This document shows, piece after piece, positions 29,481 to 33,229 of a stretch of 64,000 nucleotides of DNA. The stretch is from Bacillota bacterium. Its GTDB lineage: Bacteria; Bacillota; Clostridia; Caldicoprobacterales; DTU083. The stretch's first letter is position 1. Each line of letters starts with the position of its first letter. Position numbers and translations under genes: made by a program. Under the pieces are notes generated by a model, which made no database searches, was not told where the DNA came from, and saw only the letters and a list, made by a program, of their open reading frames with translations. The stretch spans positions 62,001 through 126,000 of the forward strand of contig JAKPIB010000017.1 in assembly GCA_029549985.1 (NCBI GenBank). Direction: 5' to 3'.

Positions 29481-29516
29481 AAAGCGGTCTTCACAGTCAG
29501 TGAGACCGCTTTTTAA
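29481..29516 (+). terminator. Riboswitch expression-platform terminator
   Basis: AAAGCGGTCTTCAC pairs with GTGAGACCGCTTT (one unpaired base) around a short loop, followed by TT and A-rich DNA. It lies 15 bases after the aptamer and 28 bases before the eam ATG. Confidence 0.85.
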
Positions 29517-29543: not shown

Positions 29544-30779
29544 ATGGGACATTTCACTGCAAAACCGGCTTTTCAAGCCAGGACCGACAGGTTTGACAAA
29601 TTAAAGGATTCCATAGCGGATTACCTTCAGTGCAAGGACAAAATACTGACAGGCCTTGATGATGAGGAGCGTATTGGGGCCCAGAAAAGAAAGATAATGG
29701 ACCGGCTGGGGGCCACCGAAGAGCAGTGGAACGACTACAGATGGCAGCTGGCCAACCGGTTTACCGATATTGACGATTTTGCCGACCTTATCGGAGTATC
29801 ACCTGAAGCCGCAGCGAAAATCAAAGAGGTTGGCACGACCTATCGCTATGCCATATCACCCTACTACCTGTCGCTGATCGACCCTGAGGATCCAGCCTGC
29901 CCTATCAGGCGGCAGGCGGTACCATCGCCGGAGGAGCTCGATCCTGACGGAGACCTCGATCCAATGGACGAGGCCGGCTGGACTCCTGTTGACCTTGTAA
30001 CGAGAAGGTATCCGGACCGCCTGATCATAAAGGTCACGAACGTGTGCGGGATGTACTGCCGTTTTTGCCAAAGGCGGCGCCTGATCGGAGAAACGGACAC
30101 CCATGCGCCCTGGGACCAGATCAAGCAGGCCATCGAATACGTGAGAGAACACGAGGAGATCCGGGATGTGCTGATCACGGGCGGAGACGCATTCATGCTC
30201 AGTGATAGCATGATCGAAAGGCTGCTTATATCACTTAGAGAGATCGACCACGTGGAGATCATAAGATTCGGGACTCGGACACCCGTTACCCTTCCCCAGC
30301 GCATCACTGAAAATCTGGTAAATATACTGAAGAAATATCATCCGGTTTATGTAAACACACATTTCAACAGTACGCGGGAAATCACCAGGGAATCAAAGGA
30401 GGCCTGCGAACGGCTGGCTAATGCGGGCATCCCCCTTGGAAACCAGATGGTGCTGCTGAACGGGGTCAACAACGATCCACACATAGTGAGAAAGCTGAAC
30501 CAAAGCCTTCTGAAGATCCGGGTCAAGCCCTACTATATCTTCCACCCAAAGACGATCAAGGGTACTTCGCATTTTTGGGTCCGCATCGAAGACGGCATGG
30601 AGATAATGGAGTCCTTGAGGGGGCGTACATCGGGCATGGCGATCCCCGCATACATCGTCAACGGGCCGGGCGGCCTCGGGAAAACCCCGATCCTGCCCAA
30701 TTACCTGATGTACCTCGGGACTGAAAAGGCGGTATTCCGCAACTGGGAAGGCAAGCTCTTTGAGATAGAAAATAAATAA
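29544..30779 (+). CDS. eam: Glutamate 2,3-aminomutase (radical SAM, PLP)
   Basis: KamA-family radical-SAM/PLP aminomutase, 411 residues from the ATG at 29544, chosen because GGAGGTG lies 9 bases upstream. C168, C172 and C175 (CGMYCRFC) hold the 4Fe-4S cluster; K380 in GPGGLGKTP binds PLP. In lysine 2,3-aminomutase two Asp (293 and 330 of the C. subterminale enzyme) bind the lysine side-chain amine. In a gap-free alignment these are K336 and N373 here. The same Lys/Asn pair with the same spacing is reported for glutamate 2,3-aminomutase of C. difficile. The product would be beta-glutamate, a compatible solute. No ablB-type acetyltransferase is nearby, which also argues against the beta-lysine pathway. 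It lies behind a c-di-AMP riboswitch. Confidence 0.88.
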   Translation: MGHFTAKPAFQARTDRFDKLKDSIADYLQCKDKILTGLDDEERIGAQKRKIMDRLGATEEQWNDYRWQLANRFTDIDDFADLIGVSPEAAAKIKEVGTTYRYAISPYYLSLIDPEDPACPIRRQAVPSPEELDPDGDLDPMDEAGWTPVDLVTRRYPDRLIIKVTNVCGMYCRFCQRRRLIGETDTHAPWDQIKQAIEYVREHEEIRDVLITGGDAFMLSDSMIERLLISLREIDHVEIIRFGTRTPVTLPQRITENLVNILKKYHPVYVNTHFNSTREITRESKEACERLANAGIPLGNQMVLLNGVNNDPHIVRKLNQSLLKIRVKPYYIFHPKTIKGTSHFWVRIEDGMEIMESLRGRTSGMAIPAYIVNGPGGLGKTPILPNYLMYLGTEKAVFRNWEGKLFEIENK

Positions 30780-30795
30780 ACTAGCACTGGGGATA

Positions 30796-32445
30796 ATGCT
30801 GCTGATCCCGATGCTTGCAGTGCTCCTGGCGGTCATCATATCACCGATTGCAGGCATGCTTAGCCGTTCCCTGACCGATTATAACATTATAGATCCGCCG
30901 CGTTTTATCGGGCTGGAAAACTACATCGAATTATTTAAAAATGATGATATTTTTACTATAGCTTTGGCCAACACCTTTGGACTTGCTTTGCTGACCGCAT
31001 CGATCTCAGGGACATTGGCATATGCGCTATCACTGTTGTTAAGAAAGGCACACAGGGCCATCAGGTATATAGTCATCCTGGTCTTTGACCTGGTTTCGCT
31101 TTATATGCTGACAGGCGACGCTCTTAATTTTCTCCTTGACAGTGACCGCCATGGCTTGCTCAACTACCTGCTGATGGACCTTAGTATCATCAAGGAGCCT
31201 GTTCAGTTTTTGCTAAAATATGTTTGGCAGATACATCTGTTGTATATGTGCCTTATACTGTTCGGCCCCATGCTCACTGTACTGAGCCTTGTAAAAATGC
31301 GAAAGGTCCGGGGAAATTCGTTTCTGCAGCTTTTGCTCCCGCTGGAAAGCAGCCTGCACGTCTACCTGGCCGGAGCCCTGCCCTTGCTGCTGATGCCTTT
31401 ATGCAGAAATGCATCCTTGTCTGCCTTCGGGCCCGTCTCTCTTGACTACGCAGCCCATACGATCATGGGGCATTATATCAATCAATACGCGACTCTGTTG
31501 CAGGCCGGCTATGCTTCGGCGGTTGGCATAGCATCACTGCTTTTGACCGGAGCGTATCTGATCATACTCATAGCGATAAGCTGCGGAATAATGCATTTGG
31601 TGGCACTGTTGAAGCGGGGAATCAAATCAAGACAAGGCAATACGGAAATGCAGCCAGGTCCGGCCGGAGATCTCGCCCCAAATATAGTTGGGATCGTGAT
31701 GATCTTCATAGGTCTTGTTTTCCTGTTCCCGTTTTTCCTGGTGCTGATGACCTCATTCAAGGATGTCTCTGATTTGCTTATGTATCCTCCGACGATCATG
31801 CCCAGAAAGCCGACCCTTATAAACTATATCGACCTGTTCACGAACAGCTTTGACGGCTATCCCTTCTCAGGCTTGCTGGTCAGTATGTTGGCAGTTCCCT
31901 TCCTGCCTGCCCTTGCAGTGACATTGGTGAGCACTGTCTCGGCGTTTGGCGCTGCCTATTATGAATATAAGGGCCGCCGGCCGCTTTATGCGCTTATACT
32001 GGCAAGCTTTATGCTGCTGCCGACCGCTATGCTGCCTGATTATAGCAATCGTCTTATATATAACAATGACATGCTGCTTGGCTTTTATGCGGCATTTTTC
32101 AGCGCAGCCCCGCTTATAGGCTTAGCCTGGTTCAAGTCGGTTATCGATAGGGCAAGACAAACCGGTACCGGCTTGTTTAAGGCGGTCCTGCTAAACTCTA
32201 TCCCTGTGATTTTAGTGACCTATCTTATGTGCTACATAAGCCCCTTCGCAAATGACTTATCATTAAAACAGACTGGTTTCACATTGTATTCGAGCATCGT
32301 AGAGTCGTCCACAGTCGCGAATAGAGGTATCGTTACGGCTTCCTGGGTGATAAGATCAGGAATCGCTTCCCTGTTCCTCCTGGCAGCCTTCCTGACCGCG
32401 GTCAAATTTTCCCCCCGAAAAGGAAGGGAGCAGGACAGGATCTAG
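30796..32445 (+). CDS. Fused MalF-MalG-like ABC permease with degenerate coupling loops
   Basis: A 549-residue protein with about twelve membrane segments. The first half resembles MalF-type (CUT1) permeases (SLTDYNIIDPPRFIGLENYI), and the second half MalG-type permeases (LMTSFKDVSDLLMYPPTIMP then TLINYIDLF). In both halves the EAA loop that docks the ATPase has lost its EAA...DGA residues (first half KMRKVRGNSFLQLLLPL, second half KSVIDRARQTGTGLFKAVLL). No binding protein or ATPase gene is near. It starts 16 bases after eam, with only a GGGG 3 bases before the ATG, and family similarity begins slightly upstream, so translational coupling or an upstream non-ATG start is possible. Same operon as eam. 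Substrate unknown. Confidence 0.78.
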   Translation: MLLIPMLAVLLAVIISPIAGMLSRSLTDYNIIDPPRFIGLENYIELFKNDDIFTIALANTFGLALLTASISGTLAYALSLLLRKAHRAIRYIVILVFDLVSLYMLTGDALNFLLDSDRHGLLNYLLMDLSIIKEPVQFLLKYVWQIHLLYMCLILFGPMLTVLSLVKMRKVRGNSFLQLLLPLESSLHVYLAGALPLLLMPLCRNASLSAFGPVSLDYAAHTIMGHYINQYATLLQAGYASAVGIASLLLTGAYLIILIAISCGIMHLVALLKRGIKSRQGNTEMQPGPAGDLAPNIVGIVMIFIGLVFLFPFFLVLMTSFKDVSDLLMYPPTIMPRKPTLINYIDLFTNSFDGYPFSGLLVSMLAVPFLPALAVTLVSTVSAFGAAYYEYKGRRPLYALILASFMLLPTAMLPDYSNRLIYNNDMLLGFYAAFFSAAPLIGLAWFKSVIDRARQTGTGLFKAVLLNSIPVILVTYLMCYISPFANDLSLKQTGFTLYSSIVESSTVANRGIVTASWVIRSGIASLFLLAAFLTAVKFSPRKGREQDRI

Positions 32446-32762
32446 ACATTTTCAACCAGCCTTTTGAAGAGCTCCACCGCCCCGTTTATGTCCTTTTCAT
32501 CCGGGTGCCCTTTGGCGATCCCCCCGAACAGCTTGAACGGGCCGAAGGTGTCATAGCCCCTGCAGCAATATGTTCCAAGCAGGCTGCATGACTTATCCCT
32601 TACGATCCGTTTCACTTTCCTTGTATAATCCGTAGTATTTGAACCGCAGGTATATATGAGGAAAACCCTCTTGCCTGGGGGCAGGTTGTTCCTTGCAAAG
32701 TCCATGACTGCCTTGCTGAACCTACTGAAATATACGCCGGATGCAAAGCCTATAAGAGAATA
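32442..32762 (-). pseudogene. N-terminally truncated flavodoxin-like gene
   Basis: The readable frame covers only the C-terminal two thirds of a flavodoxin-fold protein: LIGFASGVYFSRFSKAVMDF, then PPGKRVFLIYTCGSNT and SCSLLGTYCCRGYDTFGPF. The FMN phosphate-binding N-terminus (normally a VVYYSxTGNT-type loop) is missing, and an in-frame stop lies at 32763-32765, exactly where the DNA turns AT-rich. An internal ATG at 32705 has no evident ribosome binding site. Its stop codon overlaps that of the fused permease by 4 bases on the opposite strand. Confidence 0.7.
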
Positions 32763-32791
32763 TTATTCCTTTTGAATATTATTACTTTTAA

Positions 32792-32822
32792 ACTAAAAAA
32801 AAGAGTATTTTACTACTCTTTT
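32792..32822 (-). terminator. Terminator of the AT-rich small gene
   Basis: Minus strand AAAAGAGTA pairs with TACTCTTTT around 6 bases, followed by more T. The stem overlaps the stop codon of the 86-residue gene. Confidence 0.8.
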
Positions 32823-33081
32823 ATTTTAGTATTTCATGCTCAAATATACTAAATTTTCCCAAATTCAATTTTCTGCACCAATATTCAATTCTTTCATCAA
32901 CTTCTTCTTCTGAATATTTCTTATCTTCCAATATTTGACAATACTTTTCTTCTTCTTCATCAAAGCCTATTCCTAAATCCCTTATAATACCTATTTTTTC
33001 ACCCTCTGCCGTTTTTATTTTAGCAACGTAAAGATTTTTTGTTTTAGTGTCGTCAAGGTCAATTACTATCATGTTTTTCAT
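32821..33081 (-). CDS. Hypothetical acidic 86-residue protein, AT-rich gene
   Basis: A small acidic soluble protein: MKNMIVIDLDDTKTKNLYVA, a central EEEEKYCQILEDKKYSEEEV and a C-terminal WCRKLNLGKFSIFEHEIL. Two cysteines, no membrane segment. I do not recognise the family. GGAG lies 8 bases before the ATG, and a terminator overlaps the stop, so it is a self-contained unit. Codons strongly favour A/T, unlike all neighbours, which suggests acquisition from a low-G+C relative. Confidence 0.65.
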   Translation of the reverse strand: MKNMIVIDLDDTKTKNLYVAKIKTAEGEKIGIIRDLGIGFDEEEEKYCQILEDKKYSEEEVDERIEYWCRKLNLGKFSIFEHEILK

Positions 33082-33229
33082 AATCGTTTCTCCTTTCTTT
33101 TTTTATTTTTTATATCATAAATGTAAGCTGACAGGTCTGCCTTCCTGCATTCGGCCGCATCGATCAACCTTCATAAGAACACCTCCGCCCAAGTACTTAC
33201 TAAAGCTAAAGTTTATCGTCAGATGACCT

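Follow-up and report, generated by a model that had tools for sequence, protein, structure and literature searches.

Whether a permease that has parted with its ATPase contacts can persist as an intact gene, and what it might then do, is the question raised by a single-chain MalF-MalG-like protein encoded behind eam, the gene for glutamate 2,3-aminomutase, and a c-di-AMP riboswitch in a Bacillota bacterium. The window (the whole 64,000-nucleotide stretch of DNA that was analysed) contains this permease as one uninterrupted open reading frame of 549 codons on the forward strand (Table 1). The spacing between the eam stop and the permease start is 16 nt, too short for a promoter between the genes, so that eam and the permease are likely co-transcribed under c-di-AMP control in this genome. 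An earlier note had placed the permease 16 bases after eam under the same riboswitch, and both the ORF spacing and the RF00379 match bear this out. The hairpin of the expression platform would act as the OFF switch of the riboswitch. The eam frame is listed from 29526, but translation more likely begins at the ATG at 29544, which follows GGAGG. On the downstream side, the permease abuts a flavodoxin-like gene lacking its 5' part (32442-32764, reverse strand; weak Pfam match only), with a junction at about 32764 where an AT-rich stretch begins, and then an island of 26.5% GC amid ~50% GC (32765-33100) that holds an 86-aa ORF of unknown kind. The truncated gene and the AT-rich island suggest that this locus is rearranging.

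Table 1. Features of the riboswitch, eam and permease locus, in window coordinates.
Feature	Position	Strand	Evidence or remark
c-di-AMP riboswitch aptamer RF00379	29316..29466	+	88.1 bits
Terminator-like hairpin and U-run, riboswitch expression platform	29481..29514 (about)	+	sequence and fold, z -3.25
eam, glutamate 2,3-aminomutase	29544..30779	+	TIGR04368 628 bits, just below 650 cut-off
Single-chain MalF-MalG-like permease	30796..32445	+	549 aa; ORF, homology and fold evidence
N-half external loop 1, residues 24-60	30865..30975	+	well conserved; segment 1-62 keeps 16/22
N-half external loop 2, residues 105-140	31108..31215	+	SDRHGLLN..EPVQF; keeps 6/12
N-half TM4-TM5 cytoplasmic loop, residues ~165-187	31288..31356	+	EAA unrecognisable; net +3 in aligned columns
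N-half external loop 3, residues 209-242	31420..31521	+	SLDYAAHT..GYASA; segment 209-248 keeps 12/24
C-half, MalG-like, residues 291-549	31666..32442	+	homology and structural match
C-half coupling loop, residues 445-470	32128..32205	+	degenerate DRARQTGTG; net +3 in aligned columns

Both halves of the protein are homologous to CUT1 permeases by tblastn and blastp, with E values down to 4e-27 for MalF-like and down to 4e-14 for MalG-like proteins, and profiles built without the fusion score 110 and 56 bits for the halves, solely in the annotated frame. The N-terminal half is ~31-34% identical to its best matches, and no relative above about 34% identity to the fusion was found. Searches of Pfam, NCBIfam and PDB sequences with the permease returned no family match, and PF00528 (BPD_transp_1), which matches 24 of 24 ordinary MalF/MalG pairs, fails to match the fusion even at E 10. 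The closest CUT1 kin are the permeases of SBP-MalF-MalG-NHL-Yip1-DUF5696 operons, whose MalF/MalG pairs (L203-L206, together with L207 and L208 of this genome) align along both halves of the fusion and share its external motifs. These pairs are two separate genes with intact EAA loops, accompanied in most operons by an SBP of ~960-1040 aa and by NHL, Yip1 and DUF5696-type partners, with Pfam used to confirm the domains in the C49 operon alone; the fusion, in contrast, is one chain and stands alone, with no SBP, NHL, Yip1 or DUF5696 gene beside it. The previous description of two complete CUT1-type halves in one chain holds for the homology of both halves and for the fold, but the fusion lacks both the cytoplasmic tail of about 30 aa with which MalF-type proteins begin and the SGIK tail with which MalG-type proteins end. 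In MalG this end of the chain reaches into the interface of the MalK dimer (PMC3150292).

The AF2 model of the fusion, built with an 84-row alignment (pLDDT 74, pTM 0.75) and superseding one from 25 rows (pLDDT 50), predicts for each half a type I importer fold. This model matches FbpB (9j4r_A) with Z 17.3 and 433 residues aligned at rmsd 4.2, and the next structural matches, for each half alone, are SugA (Z 14), MalF, and MalG and SugB (Z 11-12). FbpB of the Thermus thermophilus FbpBC system likewise carries two permease domains in one chain, and the fused layout therefore has precedent. FbpB is 16% identical to the fusion and is partnered with the ATPase FbpC, whereas the fusion, with only a degenerate loop in the C-half, does not carry EAA loops in both domains and has no partner ATPase gene; despite the structural match, its nearest relatives in sequence are CUT1 permeases. 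MalF-MalG of MalFGK2 and SugA-SugB of LpqY-SugABC resemble each fusion half in their type I importer fold (Z about 11-14), but in them the two permeases are distinct polypeptides whose EAA coupling helices dock on the ATPase.

The contacts for the ATPase are where the fusion departs from these systems. Both EAA loops had been reported as gone; in the N-half no EAA motif is recognisable, whereas the C-half loop is degenerate yet in register. There, DRARQTGTG aligns gap-free with EAxxIDGAx, with D-R-A---G in register: A453, G457 and the later P470 are kept, E is replaced by D, and IDGA by QTGT. The conserved Asp of both coupling loops is lost. A frameshift hiding an EAA loop was considered and rejected, with no match in other frames. 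In the structure prediction of the coupling helices, AF2 still forms a helix-turn-helix at the C-half loop and gives low confidence to TM4 and the loop of the N-half. Judged against 55 normal loops of each kind, the coupling segments each carry a net charge of +3 (controls: -3 to +1 in MalF, -4 to +1 in MalG) and keep 8 of 36 and 4 of 23 conserved positions, below the minimum of the 55 controls in each case. Negative helices that face positive ATPase surfaces have been described (PMC8603345). Loss of ATPase coupling is thus supported by sequence, charge and the pattern of conservation, and, judged from its sequence, the permease has most likely ceased to operate as an ATP-driven ABC importer.

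The outer face of the protein has fared differently. With conservation defined as agreement in no fewer than 70% of controls, 47 of 85 conserved positions survive in the external segments (16/22, 6/12, 12/24, 9/18 and 4/9) versus 28 of 118 in the membrane and cytoplasmic segments (6/18, 8/36, 5/19, 4/23 and 5/22; Fisher p 8e-6), a count that leans on the N-half TM4-TM5 alignment, itself uncertain, and on segment borders that were set from the alignment after viewing and that take parts of TM helices into some external segments. Conserved residues have also been lost at several TM positions, so that the loss reaches beyond the coupling loops and the divergence is broad but uneven.

The permease frame contains no stop or frameshift, no other frame gives a better match, and none of the marks of a pseudogene (stop, frameshift, lost coding statistics) was found. 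Its codon score of 0.068 compares with 0.046-0.214 for neighbouring genes and values below zero for the other forward frames, and its GC content by codon position resembles that of the neighbours. The terminal branch of the fusion is the longest of the set for both halves (N-half 1.78 against a control maximum of 1.51; C-half 2.70 against 1.36). Under a simple neutral simulation, 0.1 substitutions per site leave 81% of residues and already bring about 4 stops, and 0.3 substitutions per site bring about 10. Such long divergence with an open frame, where simulated drift is rich in stops, argues that most of the divergence took place under constraint on the frame. Long neutral decay is thus unlikely, with neither stops nor a frameshift and with normal codon usage, and recent relaxation or decay of the permease is possible. 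The earlier note had offered decay or a function free of the ABC motor; long decay is disfavored by the open frame and codon statistics, while uncoupling from the ATPase gains support.

Only one sequence of the fusion is known, from one genome. No orthologue or fusion was found elsewhere in about 1,200 genomes (99 relatives, 391 of the class, 398 of the phylum, 392 of another order and 20 with related eams, some counted twice), in which the long best matches span pairs of genes separated by a stop, and scans of genome_contigs and viral_contigs with the fusion gave no close homologue. The eam of the window shares 82-86% identity with its counterparts in other Clostridia but only 52-54% with those of the family and order to which its genome belongs, a pattern that suggests probable acquisition by horizontal transfer. 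Of 11 relatives scanned, 9 have an RF00379-family riboswitch ahead of the eam locus. Conserved linkage to eam, which had been proposed as a check, was not found: no permease follows eam in the examined close relatives of this eam or in the family, and conserved synteny of the flanking genes was not seen in relatives. The idea that a deletion fused shortened eam and permease genes was rejected on the eam side, since eams of the clade normally end in FEIDNK. The riboswitch, eam and permease are therefore a local arrangement and no evolved module; so tight an arrangement in one genome can mislead, and the comparative data lend the linkage no support.

Four accounts of the permease can be weighed against these results. 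The best supported, which we put at about an even chance, sees the gene as still open and its product as a former CUT1 permease that evolves fast and has come uncoupled from the ATPase. Counted against it are the alanine, the glycine, the acidic first residue and the predicted helix-turn-helix retained at the C-half loop, the losses in the TM core that would suit general relaxation, the want of a known SBP partner, the single known sequence, and the rearranging locus downstream. A second account is a relic in early decay: a MalFG fusion, displaced or brought in by horizontal transfer, whose operon was lost and which now drifts, no stop codon having yet arisen. The restriction to one genome, the longest branches of the set, the want of an adjoining SBP or operon partner, the broad loss of conserved positions including the TM core, and the truncation of the flavodoxin-like gene downstream, together with the AT-rich island, all speak for such a relic, which we hold possible but somewhat unlikely in view of a frame that stays open for all 549 codons and shows no sign of a frameshift, normal codon bias, the sparing of the external segments and the constraint on the frame that the simulated stops imply.

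Continued work as an ABC importer would require an ATPase from elsewhere. Neither an SBP nor a MalK-type ATPase gene adjoins the permease, as had been claimed before, and the complete peptide-type ABC importer and the ABC exporter pair elsewhere in the window are both of other kinds. The genome does hold one OB_MalK (MalK/UgpC-type) ATPase, on another contig than the window (C20:155309-156466; NF008653 500 bits, cut-off 432). The two normal permease relatives in this genome also have no ATPase gene in their operons, so that its absence near the fusion is not diagnostic and was rejected as evidence of uncoupling. Homologues with intact EAA loops beside ATPase genes, which the earlier note had named as evidence against its reading, were found in part: the EAA loops are intact, but the examined homologues have no adjoining ATPase genes. 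An importer with diverged coupling helices, powered by the distant UgpC/MalK-type ATPase, would also be consistent with the residues in register at the C-half loop, with the variable first EAA residue among published CUT1 transporters (PMC8603345) and with fused two-domain permeases such as FbpB, which have been solved as importers. It is nonetheless unlikely, as the N-half motif is absent, the Asp of both loops and the MalG tail are lost, no SBP gene is adjacent, and both loops have reversed to +3, in contrast to the negative helices described as facing positive ATPase surfaces (PMC8603345). Far less probable is a release channel for osmolytes or beta-glutamate, or an osmosensor, functionally tied to eam. 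The 16-nt spacing and the upstream riboswitch suggest such a device, but close eam relatives (82-86% identical) mostly keep the riboswitch without the permease, family eams likewise have no permease behind them, and the 20 genomes carrying related eams yielded no orthologue of the fusion. The osmolyte-channel, release-valve and eam-link ideas raised previously gain no support, given this absence of linkage and a permease family made up of sugar-type importers.

In the favored account of an uncoupled permease, a single-chain former CUT1 permease of the DUF5696/Yip1/NHL-operon branch has kept its frame, its predicted two-domain fold and much of its outer face, and has lost the motif, the charge and the C-terminal tail for engaging a MalK-type ATPase. 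The analysis shows the homology, the predicted fold, the loss of motif and charge and the integrity of the frame, whereas any function is inferred. If it works, it may do so as an ATPase-free membrane protein that still meets an SBP or ligand outside, and a receptor or passive gate would be the most economical mechanism. The fuller proposal, in which a fused CUT1 heterodimer shed its ATPase interface, kept its SBP face and now serves, without an ATPase, as a receptor or gate controlled osmotically through c-di-AMP, is unlikely. If stable, the protein would be an ABC importer permease that has parted from its motor in evolution yet remained intact, and thus a natural test of transmembrane domains without ATP coupling.

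Several related loci were noted during the searches. The two operon copies in this genome (L207 and L208; G000 C49 and C20) are uncharacterised and encode an SBP of ~960-990 aa, MalF, MalG, NHL-repeat and Yip1 proteins and a large protein, which is DUF5696 in L207. A 1363-aa ORF of genome G079 (L153:356-4447, reverse strand) begins like a MalF-type permease and continues, through gene fusion or assembly error, into unrelated domains, and was rejected as kin of the fusion. Two candidate SBP genes of G000 have no permease nearby: an orphan lipoprotein gene between dut-like and holA-like genes (L190:4262-5512; C48:93501) and a gene that adjoins a sensor-looking membrane protein (L191:3048-6083; C39:17039).
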